Positions 1 to 5,421 of a DNA stretch of 64,000 nucleotides are shown here, piece after piece (within the stretch, counting starts at the first letter, position 1; each line of letters begins with the position of its first letter). The translations under genes and the position numbers were made by a program. The stretch lies in assembly GCF_900115505.1 (NCBI RefSeq), contig NZ_FOWQ01000001.1, positions 682,001-746,000 on the forward strand, in the 5' to 3' direction. Under the pieces are notes generated by a model, which searched no databases, had not been told where the DNA came from, and saw nothing but the letters and a program-made list of their open reading frames with translations. The stretch comes from Geodermatophilus dictyosporus (GTDB lineage Bacteria > Actinomycetota > Actinomycetes > Mycobacteriales > Geodermatophilaceae).

Positions 1-3000
1 ACCTCGTCCTCGGGGAGGAGGACCTCGTTGACCAGGGTCACCCTGATCCACTCGCCGGGGTGGGCCCGCAGGACCAGCGGCTCCCCCGTCTCGTGCACCC
101 CGACCGCGCGCCGGTCACCGCGCGCGGCGCCCGGCCCGTCGGCGACCGCCCTCCAGCCGTCGGCCCGCTGGTACACGAGGCCCCAGGGGTCGGTGAGGGC
201 CGTGCCGTCGTAGCGGATCTCGCGCCGCCGGGCGACGACGACGTAGTCGCGGACCGGGCCGGTGTACGTCCCGTCGGGCCGGCGGTGCGGCCGGGGCGGC
301 ACCGCTCGCTGCCGGAGGAGTGCCTGGCGGTCCCCGTGCAGCGACCGCACGTCGGCGAGCCGGCCCACCGTCGGGGGCAGGGCCCGGATCAGGCCCCAGC
401 AGCCCAGCCAGGTGTCGTCGATGGCGGCGAAGCGCCACAGGTGGTCACCCGGGCCGTAGGACCGCTGGTCCCCGAGGGCCGGCACCTCGACGGTGAAGGC
501 CTCGGAGATCCCGATGGTCTGCTGGTCGACGAGGGTGGACTCCGGCACCAGCCAGTCCCTGCGCCAGCGCAGGCCGTGCAGCACGAAGCTGTGCTGCTCC
601 TCGTGCGACCCCTGGACGAGCCGCAGTCGCAGCCGCTCCCCGGGGTAGGTGCCGATGACCGGGGTGGCGGGGTCGCCGTCCTCGCGCCCCCACTCCCCGC
701 GCCGGGCCGCTCCGTCCCCCCGCCCGCGGCTGCTGAACCACCGGGAGGGGTCCTCGCCGCGCTCGGTGAGCGGCTCGCAGCGGTAGTTGACCGCCATGGC
801 ACCGGGGTCGTCGTCCCCGCCCAGTTCCCCGGGCGGGTTGAGCGGACGGCCGCGCCCGTCGAAGAGCGGCACGAAGTCGGCCACGGCCAGGCAGGCCTCC
901 CGGAAGGCCGGGAACTCGCGGCCACCCGGGCCGGGCGCGACGACCGCCTGGCTCCCGGTCCAGGCATCGGTGGGAGCGGCCACGGCCGGGTCCCAGGTGC
1001 GCGGGGTGAGCCAGCGCGACCCGTGCGGTTCGACGACGAGGGCGGCGAACAGGCCGTGCTTCTGCCGGTAGTTGGCCAGCAGGTGGTCGTGGAAGAAGCA
1101 GGGGCCGAACTCCTCGTCGACCACCCACCGGTGGAACCCCACGTTGGGCGGGAGCTGCACGGGTCCCGCCTCGGGCAGGCCGAGGACGGGGTCCTCGCAG
1201 CTGGTCCCGGAGAGGTAGTTCCAGCCGGTCGAGGAACCGTCGGCGGCCAGGACGTCGAACTTGGTCAGGTGCACGTGCATCGCGCACTCGACGGGGAGCT
1301 GGGCGTGGTCGAAGGCGTCCGCCGGCAGGCCCCTGAGCCGGTTGGTGAACCGCGACTCGAGGACGTCGCCCTGGTTGGCGCGGGTGTAGAGGGGCTCGAT
1401 GGCGTCCGGGTCGGCGGGCGGCGCGGGGACCGCCTGCGGCACGCCGTCGACGGTCGCCCCGGTGAGGACGTAGTGGTGCCCGTGCGGGTCGTGCCAGCCG
1501 TACGGGTTGTACCGCACCGGCGCCTCCCGCACCTCGACGTCGTGGCGCACCAGCCGCGTCCCCGGCAGCCCGGCCCGCTGGTTCCACGTCGCGGCCAGCG
1601 TGTCGAGGTCGATGAAGAAGGACCCCGGCTTGCCGGCGCACCCGGGGTCACCGGCGGCGAACTCCGCGGCGCTGGCCCGGACGCCGTAGAGCAGGCGCCG
1701 GCGGCCGACCACGTGCTCGTCCTCCCACGCCGGCGGGGGTGGCGCCTTCTGCGGGTAGGTGGCGTCGACGAACCAGGGGAAGCCCAGCCGCTCGGCGCCG
1801 GGGAGGCGGCCGGGCAGCGGCTGCAGCCCGGCGCACGGAGCGCCGTCGGGCAGCAGCCGGCGGCCGTCCACGAGCTGGTCGAAGCTGCGCCACAGCCCCC
1901 ACATGCCGTGGTGGAAGTGGGGGTACAGGTGGCAGTGCCAGATGATGTCGCCGACGGCGCGCTGCCGGCTGCCGGACCCGTAGAGCGGGTCGATGGTGAG
2001 GGCCGTCTGCGGGCCGATGGTGATGGCGTCGAGCAGCTGCGAGCCGGCCGCCTCACCGGGGCGGGCGGTGTCGGCGGCCACGGCGCGCCACTGGTGCACG
2101 TGCAGGTGGAAGACGTGGGTCTCCTTGACGCCGCCGTGCACGAGGCGCACCCGCGCCGGGTCGCCGGCGTAGGCGCGGACGACCGGGATCGCCGGGTCAC
2201 CGGACAGCCAGGAGCTGTGGTGCTGCTCCTCCCCGGCGACGAACTCCAGCCAGTCCCCGTCGCGCCGGGCGGTGCGGAAGACCTCGCCGAGCTCCGCGTC
2301 GTACTCGACGCCGACGGCCTGCAGGTCGACCCCCGTGGCGCTGAGGCGGCCCGGGGTCGGCTGCTCGGCCAGCCGGCGCATCCGGTGGGGCAGCCGGTTG
2401 GGCATCGGCTCGGCCCGGTAGGAGATCGGCATCACGGTGTGGTCGACGTCGCCCACGTGGAAGGCGCTGTGCACCTCGGGCTCGTCGTGGAAGAAGATCG
2501 TGAACTCGCGGTGGCTGACCAGGGTCGTCCGCAGGTCGACGAACTCCCCGTCCGCCGCGAGTGCCTGCTCCCCGGGGACGCGGATGTCCACGTCGAGCCC
2601 GTCCCCGTACGACGACCGGGTCAGGTCCTCACCCGTCTCGGGGTCGTGCCAGCGGACACCCGGCGGCTCCACCACGAGGGCCCCGAAGAGGCCGTGCGCG
2701 TTGGTGCCGGCCTGGGTCCCGCGCAGGTCGGCCAGGTCGTTGAAGTACCAGACCCCCTCCCGCCCGGCGTTCCAGAGGAAGGTCCGGCGCCCGCCGGGGG
2801 GCACCGTGCTGGGCTCGTTGAGCCCCACCGCGGCGCCGTCGTCGTGCCGGACACCTCGGGCGGGGCCGGTGGAGATGCCGTCCCCCTGCAGGTGCAGGCC
2901 CACCCGGCGCCCCCGGACGGAGTTCTGCAGCCGGACCCGCACGGTCTCGCCCTCGTGGGCGCGGAGGACCAGCGGCCGGACCAGCGGCACCGGCCTCATC

Positions 3001-3797
3001 GGGTTGAACCGGGTGTAGCGCCGCACCCGGGCCTGCTCGTCGAGGAGCTCGCGGTCCGCGGCGGCGGCGCGGGCCCGCTGCCAGTCGTCGTCGGCGTGGT
3101 CGTTGAGCAGCAGTCGCCGGACCCGCTCCGCCGGCACGCCGCTGGCGGCCGACAGGCGGTCGGCGTCGAAGCGGCGGAGCGGGTCGGCCTCGACCCGCTC
3201 GAACCACGCGTCGATCCCCCGCCGGCCGTTCTCGAGCGCGACCCGCCAGCGCTTGTGCAGGTCGGCGACGTCGGGCCGGCCGGTCTGCGGGTCGACCGGC
3301 AGGGCACGGACCTGCCCGTCGGTGAGCAGGTCCAGCAGCGTGACGATGCGGTCGACGAGCTCCCGCACGTGCCGCTCGATGCTCTGCACCCGCCGCGAGG
3401 CGCCCCGGCGCGGGCCCTCGTCGCCGTCGTGGACGGCGCGCGACCGGCCCCGGTAGACCCGGAGCTCCTGCAGCACCTCCCGGTCGACCAGCGCGTCCCC
3501 GGGCGTCTCGTCGTACGCCTCGTCGAGCGTCCGGGCCACCCGCCGGTCGTCGTGCCGGTGCCCGAGGACGGTCTCCTCGTAGCGCCCCAGGTCGTCGACG
3601 AGCACCTGGGTGCGCTGCGTGCGCAGGTGCAGGCGAGGGAGGTACTCGTCCTCGTCCTCCCAGCGCGCCCGGGCCCAGTCCAGCAGCGGCCGGTGGGCCT
3701 GGAGGGCGTACAGCAGCCCGTTCGGGTCGTGGTCGCCGTCGACGTTGTAGACGATCGGCATCGACACGGCGACGACGTCGTACGAGCGGGAAGCCAT
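1..3797 (-). CDS. Giant multicopper oxidase (3' end beyond window)
   Basis: The minus-strand frame is open from an ATG at 3797 to the window edge, giving at least 1265 residues without a stop. A GAGGTG ribosome site lies 6 nt before the ATG. Residues 1 to about 250 are polar and helical and do not look like cupredoxin. Cupredoxin-type segments follow: HGLFGALVVEP near 365, HLHVHQW near 563, the T1-type motif WHCHLYPHFHHGMWG near 617-631, CAMHVHLTKF near 837, FFHDHLL near 900 followed by HGLFAALVVEP, and QHSFVLHGLRW near 1062. The family couples four one-electron oxidations to reduction of O2 to water. Its size resembles the large MnxG/MofA-like oxidases more than laccases or CueO, but the substrate is unknown. 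I see no Sec or Tat signal peptide. DUF2182 and DUF1326 genes lie just upstream in the same direction, with a 35-nt gap. The fold call is firm; the substrate is open. Confidence 0.85.
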   Translation of the reverse strand, partial: MASRSYDVVAVSMPIVYNVDGDHDPNGLLYALQAHRPLLDWARARWEDEDEYLPRLHLRTQRTQVLVDDLGRYEETVLGHRHDDRRVARTLDEAYDETPGDALVDREVLQELRVYRGRSRAVHDGDEGPRRGASRRVQSIERHVRELVDRIVTLLDLLTDGQVRALPVDPQTGRPDVADLHKRWRVALENGRRGIDAWFERVEADPLRRFDADRLSAASGVPAERVRRLLLNDHADDDWQRARAAAADRELLDEQARVRRYTRFNPMRPVPLVRPLVLRAHEGETVRVRLQNSVRGRRVGLHLQGDGISTGPARGVRHDDGAAVGLNEPSTVPPGGRRTFLWNAGREGVWYFNDLADLRGTQAGTNAHGLFGALVVEPPGVRWHDPETGEDLTRSSYGDGLDVDIRVPGEQALAADGEFVDLRTTLVSHREFTIFFHDEPEVHSAFHVGDVDHTVMPISYRAEPMPNRLPHRMRRLAEQPTPGRLSATGVDLQAVGVEYDAELGEVFRTARRDGDWLEFVAGEEQHHSSWLSGDPAIPVVRAYAGDPARVRLVHGGVKETHVFHLHVHQWRAVAADTARPGEAAGSQLLDAITIGPQTALTIDPLYGSGSRQRAVGDIIWHCHLYPHFHHGMWGLWRSFDQLVDGRRLLPDGAPCAGLQPLPGRLPGAERLGFPWFVDATYPQKAPPPPAWEDEHVVGRRRLLYGVRASAAEFAAGDPGCAGKPGSFFIDLDTLAATWNQRAGLPGTRLVRHDVEVREAPVRYNPYGWHDPHGHHYVLTGATVDGVPQAVPAPPADPDAIEPLYTRANQGDVLESRFTNRLRGLPADAFDHAQLPVECAMHVHLTKFDVLAADGSSTGWNYLSGTSCEDPVLGLPEAGPVQLPPNVGFHRWVVDEEFGPCFFHDHLLANYRQKHGLFAALVVEPHGSRWLTPRTWDPAVAAPTDAWTGSQAVVAPGPGGREFPAFREACLAVADFVPLFDGRGRPLNPPGELGGDDDPGAMAVNYRCEPLTERGEDPSRWFSSRGRGDGAARRGEWGREDGDPATPVIGTYPGERLRLRLVQGSHEEQHSFVLHGLRWRRDWLVPESTLVDQQTIGISEAFTVEVPALGDQRSYGPGDHLWRFAAIDDTWLGCWGLIRALPPTVGRLADVRSLHGDRQALLRQRAVPPRPHRRPDGTYTGPVRDYVVVARRREIRYDGTALTDPWGLVYQRADGWRAVADGPGAARGDRRAVGVHETGEPLVLRAHPGEWIRVTLVNEVLLPEDE

Positions 3798-3832
3798 GAC
3801 CAGCACCTCGATCGGGGCAGGGGTCGGGACGG

Positions 3833-4624
3833 TCAGGACGGGGTGCCGAGGAGGAGCACCAGTCCGAGGAGGACGGCGGCCACGCCGATCGGGCGGACGA
3901 GCCGGAGGCCCGTGCGGGTGGTGCGCTCGGCGGCCATGACGACGGCCAACGGGACCATGGTCGCGAGGTGGGCCGTCCCACCCGCGAGGCACACGGCCAT
4001 CAGCGCCCAGCAGCACCCCACGCAGGACGCGCCGTAGGCGACGCCGATGGTGGCGGCCTCGACCGCCGGCCGGCGCTCGCCGTGCCAGTGGGCGACGGCG
4101 AAGGTGCGCGGGCTGCGGCAGGCGGTGAGGCACCGGCGCTTGAGCGGGGAGAGCTGGAAGGCGCCGGCGAGGACCAGGACACCGCCGACGAGCACCTGGG
4201 GAGCGGGCCGCCACGCTCCTCCAGTCACGGCCAGGACCACGAGCTCGCCGGCCACCAGCAGCGCACCGACGACCACCCACACGGCGAGGAAGGCGCCGGC
4301 CGCGGACGCGACCAGCAGGTGCCGGGTGCGGTGCCGGGCCACCAGGCGCTGCAGGACCCGCAGGAGGGGCAGTGCCGGGGGCAGCATCATGGCCACGACC
4401 ATGAGCGCCCACCCCGTCAGGGCCGCTGCCCCGGTCCCCGCGGCGGCGCGGCCCGCGTGCAGGTGCCCGCCGTGGTCCCCGGCTCCGGTCCCCTGGCCGA
4501 GCAGGTACAGCACCAGCCAGGCGGCGCCGGCGACCACCAGCACGACGGTCGGCAGCACCGGTCGCGCCACCCCCGGCGGCCATCCCCGGCGGCCGGGCGC
4601 GAGGCGGGTCGCTGCCACGGTCAC
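3833..4624 (-). CDS. DUF2182 integral membrane protein
   Basis: This 263-residue protein has about six hydrophobic segments and the DUF2182 hallmarks: an AMMLPPALP motif near residue 80, a Cys-containing SPLKRRCLTACR segment near 160, and a GASCVGCCWALM segment near 200. Family members are described as predicted metal-binding membrane proteins of unknown function. His- and Gly-rich residues between the first two membrane segments could add metal ligands. The GTG start overlaps the DUF1326 stop (GTGA), so the two are probably translationally coupled. The multicopper oxidase follows after 35 nt. Co-transcription with a copper enzyme suggests a role in copper handling or electron transfer, which is inference. 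Confidence 0.85.
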   Translation of the reverse strand: MTVAATRLAPGRRGWPPGVARPVLPTVVLVVAGAAWLVLYLLGQGTGAGDHGGHLHAGRAAAGTGAAALTGWALMVVAMMLPPALPLLRVLQRLVARHRTRHLLVASAAGAFLAVWVVVGALLVAGELVVLAVTGGAWRPAPQVLVGGVLVLAGAFQLSPLKRRCLTACRSPRTFAVAHWHGERRPAVEAATIGVAYGASCVGCCWALMAVCLAGGTAHLATMVPLAVVMAAERTTRTGLRLVRPIGVAAVLLGLVLLLGTPS

Positions 4625-5421
4625 CCGTCCGAGGGGACGGACGCGGTGGGGTAGGCGAACCGGCCGCGCATCGCGGAGCGGCGGGTGGCGTCCGCGTAGC
4701 CGCCGGGCAGCACCGGGAGGTTCAGGCGGAAGCGGGTCGCGGTCATCGCGGTCACGGAGCCGACCGCGGCCAGCTCCCGGTGCAGGGCCGTGCGGTTCAG
4801 GGTGAGCGGCTCGCCGCCGGCCGCGGCGGCCACCCCGTCGCCCGCGCCGTCCGGTCGGTCGAACGCGAGGTCCGCCCCGTCCGCCTCGAAGGCCGGGATG
4901 TCGCTCGTCGTGGCCTCGGTGGGGTGCCGGGCGCCGTCGACCTGCTGCTTCTCGTGCACGCGGATGCGCCAGCCACCGGCCTCGTCCCGGCCCTCGCCGC
5001 TCTCGACCCGGATCGCCGCCGGCGACACGGACAGCACCGCTCCCATCACCTCGGCCAGGTCCGCCAGGGGTCCCTCGGGCGCGCCGAAGGCCCGTGCGAG
5101 GGCGTCGTACGCCTCCGCTCCGTGGGCCGGGACGTCGTCGACGTCGACGAAGAGCACGGAGTAGCGACCGCCGTCGGGGCCGCGTCGCCGGCCGTCGTGG
5201 GTGGAGATGCTGACGACGCGGGCGCCCGCGACGTCGACGGGGCCCCCGTCCCCGGGCAGGCGGCCGTCCTCGACCACCCAGGCGAACAGACCCGTGCAGT
5301 GGTCGTCGTCGGGATCCTCGTCCACCCAGCAGGGACAGAGGGTCTCGCAGTCACAGGTCTCGACGAACCACCCGGCGAGGGCGTGCGCGGGCAGCCGGGT
5401 CCCGGATCCCGTGGTGGACAT
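4621..5421 (-). CDS. DUF1326 Cys-motif protein
   Basis: The protein has 266 residues from the ATG at 5421, which has GGGAG 7 nt upstream. The open frame runs 31 codons further upstream, but that stretch is Arg/Pro-rich and looks non-coding. The N-terminal part carries the signature CDCETLCPCW followed by a further Cys (DDDHCTGLFAW), typical of DUF1326 and suited to binding a metal or a cofactor. DUF1326 and DUF2182 genes are often found together. No signal peptide is apparent. It is probably the first gene of the three-gene operon with DUF2182 and the large multicopper oxidase. Function is unknown. Confidence 0.85.
   Translation of the reverse strand: MSTTGSGTRLPAHALAGWFVETCDCETLCPCWVDEDPDDDHCTGLFAWVVEDGRLPGDGGPVDVAGARVVSISTHDGRRRGPDGGRYSVLFVDVDDVPAHGAEAYDALARAFGAPEGPLADLAEVMGAVLSVSPAAIRVESGEGRDEAGGWRIRVHEKQQVDGARHPTEATTSDIPAFEADGADLAFDRPDGAGDGVAAAAGGEPLTLNRTALHRELAAVGSVTAMTATRFRLNLPVLPGGYADATRRSAMRGRFAYPTASVPSDG

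Follow-up and report, generated by a model that had tools for sequence, protein, structure and literature searches.

The stretch of DNA analysed here, termed the window, comprises 64,000 nucleotides (G000:C10:682001-746000) of the 4.69-Mb genome of Geodermatophilus dictyosporus (G000). Its first bases hold a trio of minus-strand genes, identified by reading the open reading frames, which code in this order for a DUF1326 protein, a DUF2182 protein and a giant multicopper oxidase (Table 1). The original prediction, made from the sequence alone, had described three co-directional genes, two of them overlapping by GTGA and the third placed at a 35-nt distance, and the ORF coordinates confirm this layout, with the oxidase ATG 35 nt past the DUF2182 stop. 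At the window's own locus the gene finder chose a later start, and the GTG overlap is based there on a reading of the sequence; with starts as placed by the gene finder, the two small genes share 4 nt at 10 of 25 trio loci.

The oxidase was expected to span at least 1265 residues and to continue beyond the window. Read from the parent genome, its 3' end lies at G000:C10:680935, yielding a full length of 1620 aa. The possibility of a broken oxidase gene is not supported: a single uninterrupted frame encodes all 1620 aa, and the protein recurs at 93% identity in another genome of the genus. On the same strand, the oxidase gene is followed by genes for two further proteins, one of 110 aa with a GYD domain and one of the NmrA/NAD-binding type. 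Neither recurs at other trio loci in a neighbourhood comparison, and the GYD gene was not found 3' of the oxidase in G017, the nearest relative. No MnxE or MnxF was recognised in the operon, as judged without an MnxE/F sequence search, the small downstream gene being the one for the GYD-domain protein.

Table 1. Genes and motifs of the trio, in window positions.
Feature	Position	Strand	Details
DUF1326 gene	5421-4621	-	ATG 5421, stop 4621; 266 aa; Pfam PF07040
Five-Cys motif of DUF1326, C-x-C-x3-C-P-C-x10-C	5296..5355	-	from alignment
GTGA shared by the end of DUF1326 and the beginning of DUF2182	4621..4624	-	sequence reading
DUF2182 (PpoB2-type) membrane protein gene	4624-3833	-	GTG 4624, stop 3833; 263 aa; Pfam PF09948
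MxxxMM motif of DUF2182, in hydrophobic helix	4385..4402	-	M75, M79, M80 invariant in 22 rows
CxxxC motif of DUF2182	4118..4132	-	C165, C169 invariant in 22 rows
CxGCC motif of DUF2182	4010..4024	-	C201, G203, C204, C205 invariant in 22 rows
MnxG-type giant multicopper oxidase gene	1..3797 in window	-	ATG 3797; open to base 3; first 1265 of 1620 aa
N-terminal insert of oxidase, residues ~45-265	3003..3665 (approximate)	-	long in trio clade, short in other MnxG homologues
Oxidase domain 2 copper motifs, ETHVFHLH and WHCHLYPHFHHGM	1902..2117	-	assigned T1 ligands H561, C622, H627, M632; assigned trinuclear His 564, 566, 621, 623
Oxidase domain 3 copper motifs, HVH (841, 843) and FFHDH (903, 905)	1083..1277	-	assigned other half of trinuclear site

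An MnxG-type oxidase with complete copper motifs in two domains

The oxidase matches the Pfam multicopper oxidase families PF07731 (42.1 bits, cut-off 20.4) and PF07732 (31.3 bits, cut-off 21). Among the PDB chain sequences searched with phmmer, the single strong match is Bacillus MnxG (9bxa; E 3.4e-174, 585 bits), which aligns in four stretches between oxidase residues 4 and 1591 and thus over nearly the full length; the next-best matches are two-domain laccases at about 36 bits. Both proteins share a GDHxPNG-like N-terminus as well as the motifs HVFHxHVHQW, HCHLYP and FFHDH, and they differ in the T1 motif, which reads HCHLYPHFHHGM in the window's oxidase and HCHLYPAFGIGM in 9bxa. In contrast to the Bacillus MnxEFG system, the window's oxidase carries a long N-terminal insert and is accompanied by DUF1326 and DUF2182. 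The NCBIfam equivalog NF041487, which we take to be the Pseudomonas-type MnxG, also matches in five stretches, yet at 201.8 bits (for the 1265 aa within the window) the score falls far short of the cut-off of 3100, and therefore a substrate cannot be carried over from that model.

Six cupredoxin-like domains can be traced by motif. Copper ligand roles, assigned at the motif level from the known multicopper oxidase pattern, are complete in domains 2 and 3 only, while domains 1 and 6 are degenerate; hence, one T1 and one trinuclear copper site, the latter between domains 2 and 3, are predicted. In ceruloplasmin-type six-domain ferroxidases the trinuclear site lies between the first and the last domain, and given its complete motifs in domains 2 and 3 and its degenerate domains 1 and 6, the window's oxidase does not fit this type. 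Across 82 aligned oxidases, the domain 2 motifs are kept in all rows apart from a single R at position 566, and the domain 3 motifs are kept throughout. The alignment was made without L027, L053 and L092, which have no ORF above 1100 aa (L053 is a 3.9-kb contig without upstream room).

The insert stands after an N-terminal GDHD motif in the oxidases of the clade described below. In 29 rows of this clade, the stretch aligned with residues 24-275 of the window's oxidase is 160-310 aa long, the minimum coming from L041, a row whose 5' end is missing. The 53 remaining rows have 0-75 aa there, and the two zero lengths belong to the truncated L052 (itself a clade member) and L104. A signal-peptide-like stretch was found near the start of neither the oxidase nor DUF1326, and in the alignment 9bxa begins in a similar way.

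Linkage of the DUF1326-DUF2182 pair to one oxidase clade

Relatives of the oxidase were collected by an oxidase-driven contig scan covering the best 80 of 171 related loci, and HMMs for both small families were run on 85 loci, i.e., these 80 together with L009 and L024-L027. Among the best 80 of 171 loci plus the window's own and that of G017, the pair stands directly upstream of the oxidase, in the order DUF1326-DUF2182-oxidase, at 26 of the 27 clade loci with upstream room; the 26 are made up of 24 out of 25 loci from the scan, the window's own locus and G017 (L024). Order and tight spacing are kept down to approximately 44% oxidase identity to the window's protein within the best 80 of 171 loci. 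In G017 the DUF1326 gene, counted among the 26, runs through two reading frames and is either broken or misread.

In the oxidase tree the 26 linked loci form one clade together with L048, L039, L041 and L052 (SH-aLRT 100). The tree was built by a quick method without bootstrap from 51 of the 82 aligned oxidases, with composition warnings for some rows including L009; L026 (the same record as L094), L104 (partial) and 29 further Bacillota rows were left out. L039, L041 and L052 are cut by contig edges, and L039 still shows the end of DUF2182. L048, from an Acidimicrobiales metagenome-assembled genome (MAG), is the sole clade member with upstream room that lacks the pair, and its assembly gave no PF07040 match. 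Within the Actinomycetota, the clade comprises Geodermatophilus, Actinoplanes and kin, Actinomycetospora, Pseudonocardia and Kineosporia; further members are the Alphaproteobacteria Novosphingobium, Sphingomonas and Pseudoroseomonas, one cyanobacterial MAG and one Gemmatimonadota MAG. Several loci are MAG contigs with possible binning errors, and L052 and L056, which come from the same MAG, are perhaps two ends of one gene.

Outside the clade, no pair lay beside the oxidase in any of 52 loci, scanned with HMMs rebuilt to include common-type pairs. This set consists of the 54 scanned loci (43 of which have 1.6 kb or more upstream, and among which L026 and L094 are one record) minus L048 and the fragment L027, and 41 of the 52 have at least 1.6 kb upstream. 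Another 16 loci from other genomes, of which L167 is without upstream room, were likewise without a pair, bringing the scanned total outside the clade to 0 of 68. The original prediction was to fall if large-oxidase genes proved unlinked to the pair in other genomes; the linkage is instead near-total in one clade and was seen at none of the loci scanned outside it, and a chance grouping is therefore rejected. The tree needs two label changes for linkage, which may trace to a single event followed by joint inheritance or transfer.

Three further samples bear on the distribution of this operon. A search of 26 genomes from the genus found MnxG homologues in 4 of them, of the trio type in G000 and G017 and of another clade in G001 and G008. 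In a Micromonosporaceae sample 9 of 150 genomes gave a match at E 1e-50; three are of the trio type, and they correspond to L029 and probably to L046 and L033. As these loci were already counted, they are not independent. MnxG homologues also occur in 27 plasmid records. None of the 20 listed looks like the trio type, since their identities reach 36% at best and no match extends over the N-terminal insert.

Dedicated partners and a frequent fourth gene

The original prediction held that DUF1326 and DUF2182 often occur together and have no assigned role, and the former part is borne out: in 246 genomes of the phylum, with PF09948 in 51 and PF07040 in 48, PF07040 lies within 2 kb of 53 out of 67 PF09948 matches, and a linked pair is present in 41 genomes. 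The latter part needs correction for DUF2182 in one case, as a PF09948 relative, PpoB2 (COG5486), is reported to take part in specific copper transfer to tyrosinase (PMC2855505). The Marinomonas operon described there likewise combines a PF09948 protein with a copper enzyme; it differs in that the enzyme is a tyrosinase rather than an MnxG-type multicopper oxidase, and the trio has DUF1326 in addition.

Only the window's own genome, part of the 246-genome sample by construction, shows the pair beside MnxG. Five others (G105, G242, G253, G273 and G294) hold a pair and an MnxG homologue that were not adjacent within the stretches read, the two being on different draft contigs in three of them, where they may still lie near each other. 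The window's genome itself contains a second pair without MnxG (G000:C7:431227-432550). Inspection by eye, not by Pfam, revealed no copper oxidase beside such pairs in 19 regions with a pair out of 20 chosen, the remaining one (L160) being a region where the gene finder gave no pair. Most copies of the pair thus stand apart from any large oxidase, which makes the trio a specialised offshoot rather than the usual setting of the two families. Nor does an MnxG generally need the pair, as the homologues from other clades keep these copper motifs and have no pair linked to them. The pair is thus a module with a wider life, and the trio's oxidases have a version to themselves.

The MnxG-less pairs share both families and their adjacency with the trio, and they belong to other clades. 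Compared with copies from 20 chosen regions, all from Actinomycetota, the MnxG-linked DUF1326 proteins (25 rows against 22 copies from pairs without MnxG; SH-aLRT 99) and DUF2182 proteins (26 rows against 21; SH-aLRT 100) each form a single clade in quick trees. Distances between oxidases agree with those between DUF1326 and between DUF2182 proteins (Mantel r 0.90 and 0.90, p 0.0002, 25 loci, L047 being missed by the gene finder), in tests that ignore shared ancestry. In five out of six trio genomes searched, there is no DUF1326 beyond the linked copy. Taken together, the trio is a real, conserved operon, in which an MnxG-type oxidase variant is combined with a dedicated DUF1326-DUF2182 module.

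DUF1326 scores 67.9 bits with PF07040 (cut-off 25) and contains the C-x-C...CPC motif that had been noticed in one of the three genes, in the form C-x-C-x3-CPC...C. All five cysteines are conserved in each of 24 rows, one of which is the stand-alone copy from the window's genome, where the spacing of the last cysteine differs by two from the x10 of the trio protein. The AlphaFold model of DUF1326 (pLDDT 83.9, pTM 0.84) shares, by fold comparison, an acetoacetate decarboxylase-like fold and not that of a known copper chaperone. Acetoacetate decarboxylases use a catalytic lysine. DUF2182, which had been noted as a Cys-bearing membrane protein, scores 167.4 bits with PF09948 (gathering cut-off 28.7) and has invariant cysteines; the Pfam entry text calls this family a copper chaperone. 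The AlphaFold model of DUF2182 is all-helical (pLDDT 81.5, pTM 0.75) and has no fold relatives, the best Foldseek match having an E of 2.0. By sequence, neither has a convincing solved relative: the best match of DUF1326 has an E of 0.09, and none is found for DUF2182 at E up to 1.

Directly upstream of DUF1326, 19 of the 26 trio loci carry a further conserved gene on the same strand. In 18 gene models the protein measures 311-677 aa, and at 18 loci it co-varies with the oxidase (r 0.92, without correction for shared ancestry). Four members were compared with Pfam: three carry a PKD domain close to the C-terminus, one matches no family, and the N-terminal part of none of the four belongs to a Pfam family. 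No relative was found in the window's genome, in G017, or at L034-L037 and L055. Relatives do lie near MnxG of other clades in L182 and L191, and G008 holds one away from MnxG. With this gene at 19 of 26 loci and not at those of Geodermatophilus, the system in its fuller form consists of four parts, and the Geodermatophilus version is one of three genes. Other families of neighbouring genes, compared without annotation, appear in no more than 6 of 30 loci.

A proposed copper-loading route and a probable substrate

The original prediction proposed that the trio forms one metal oxidation or copper/electron-transfer system, and the near-total linkage within the clade fits this view. We consider it probable that the operon combines a dedicated copper-loading pair with an MnxG-type oxidase whose substrate is most likely Mn(II). 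The Bacillus enzyme depends on two copper-binding subunits, MnxE and MnxF (PMC5622069). Given this need, and with a presumed copper-handling pair in the place of MnxE/MnxF, we propose a Cu(I) transfer from DUF2182 via DUF1326 to the oxidase. DUF2182 would hold Cu(I) in the membrane, and the soluble, five-Cys DUF1326 would pass it on to the nascent oxidase, such that the pair would replace, or add to, the copper-binding accessory subunits. At the type-1 copper of domain 2, the mature oxidase would draw electrons from a metal, for which Mn(II) is the likeliest candidate, and it would reduce O2 at the trinuclear site common to domains 2 and 3. We infer the copper transfer, the substrate and the cellular location, and it is homology that points to Mn(II). 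This substrate gains plausibility from two Geodermatophilus strains from Negev rock varnish, for which manganese oxidation has been reported (PMC3035280, citing Hungate 1987).

The invariant cysteines and methionines of the pair would also suit a copper-defence unit, in which the oxidase is a cuprous oxidase, and DUF1326 and DUF2182 sequester or transport surplus copper. Copper resistance indeed involves multicopper oxidases that act as cuprous oxidases. However, the oxidase is far nearer to MnxG than to resistance oxidases, with 8.2 bits for the copper_res_A model against a cut-off of 478.95, and the fourth gene is the only neighbouring family that recurs widely, in a comparison of unannotated families that included no search for copper-resistance genes by name. 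We thus regard copper defence as unlikely. Slightly lower still is our estimate for the idea that the pair acts as an electron-transfer or thiol-redox partner of the oxidase and not as its copper loader: the invariant methionines that DUF2182 has besides its cysteines suit Cu(I) binding, and the PpoB2 relative is reported to act in copper transfer (PMC2855505).

The pair might also be a passenger without any working relation to the oxidase, carried along by a mobile cassette. The two label changes in the tree and the spread of the clade over four phyla are what joint transfer would give, and the DUF1326 of G017 looks frameshifted. Against this stand the fixed order and tight spacing over a wide range of oxidase identity, the separate and co-varying DUF1326 and DUF2182 clades, and the trio genomes without any other DUF1326, which render mere hitch-hiking highly improbable. 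The reading we prefer remains that of a copper-loading pair serving a putative manganese oxidase.

A literature search, with most subscription journals and all bioRxiv preprints outside its coverage, showed no paper on the trio among the matches listed. The names DUF1326 and DUF2182 retrieved no papers either, which is weak evidence in view of the partial coverage; the COG and Pfam numbers led to PMC2855505 as the only relevant paper, and MnxG in combination with the host genera gave no relevant title among the matches listed. Some of these oxidases may, reportedly, already be listed in a preprint by Kurdi et al.

Geodermatophilus is known from desert soil and rock. As a tentative extension, for which we see a somewhat less than even chance, the operon may represent a second route to an MnxG manganese oxidase. 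It would be a cassette that moves laterally and combines a giant oxidase, equipped with an N-terminal domain of its own, with a pair of copper-loading proteins in its service and often with a fourth protein that has a PKD domain. Such a cassette may be among the causes of manganese oxidation in rock-varnish actinobacteria, of which Geodermatophilus is an example. In any case, DUF1326 and DUF2182, two poorly understood families, are tied to a defined enzyme and thereby receive a testable job. Moreover, a candidate manganese-oxidation gene is provided for a genus with manganese-oxidising varnish isolates, for which the available part of PMC3035280 names no enzyme, and part of the question of biological varnish formation becomes testable.

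Conserved features of the trio loci

In 19 of the 26 trio loci, in which the DUF1326-DUF2182 pair lies directly upstream of the MnxG-type multicopper oxidase, a further conserved protein is encoded directly upstream of DUF1326, and three of the four such proteins scanned harbour a PKD domain. Relatives of this fourth protein are also found near MnxG genes of non-trio clades. Within the oxidase, the second histidine of the domain 2 type-1 (T1) copper motif HCHxxxH, H627, is retained in all 82 aligned homologues, whereas the solved Bacillus MnxG chain 9bxa has an alanine at this position.

Features and loci considered
Feature	Position or loci	Remark
Oxidase H627	window 1917-1919	second T1 histidine
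Fourth protein, trio clade	L029-L033, L038, L040, L042-L047, L049-L051, L056, L057, L062	directly upstream of DUF1326
Fourth-protein relative	L182:11455-13767	near MnxG of another clade
Fourth-protein relative	L191:16174-18000	near MnxG of another clade
Oxidase fragment, G. amargosae	L027:7573-8052 (G001:C24)
DUF1326, nearest relative (G017)	L024:11300-12256
Second pair, window's genome	G000:C7:431227-432550 (L141:7197-8628)
Large oxidoreductase-like protein	L148, L149, L151, L153, L154	motif YNGMIDRRPALIARC; near MnxG-less pair
MnxG homologues, anaerobic groups	L069-L073, L075-L091, L093, L095-L107	among best 80 of 171 related loci

Variation within Geodermatophilus

Geodermatophilus amargosae carries a short fragment that shares 92% identity over 61 residues with the window's oxidase, and its intact MnxG belongs to a clade other than the trio clade; the fragment appears to be a vestige of a trio-type oxidase that this genome has lost. 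In the nearest relative, two overlapping reading frames span the DUF1326 gene, reflecting either a frameshift or a sequencing error. The window's genome contains a second DUF1326-DUF2182 pair, which is of the common type without MnxG.

Pairs and oxidases in other genomic settings

Near several MnxG-less pairs, a similar large oxidoreductase-like protein is encoded. Genome G294 harbours MnxG homologues on two contigs (L194, L195), one apparently a plasmid, as well as a DUF1326-DUF2182 pair unlinked to them. MnxG homologues (27-30% identity) also occur in haloarchaeal plasmid records (H11-H15 among the plasmid matches listed).

Further homologues, with approximately 32-35% identity, belong to anaerobic bacterial groups, including Lachnospiraceae, Ruminococcus, Clostridium and their kin, and many of these loci are gut MAGs by title. 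The T1 and trinuclear motifs are present in these proteins, an odd setting for an enzyme that depends on O2.
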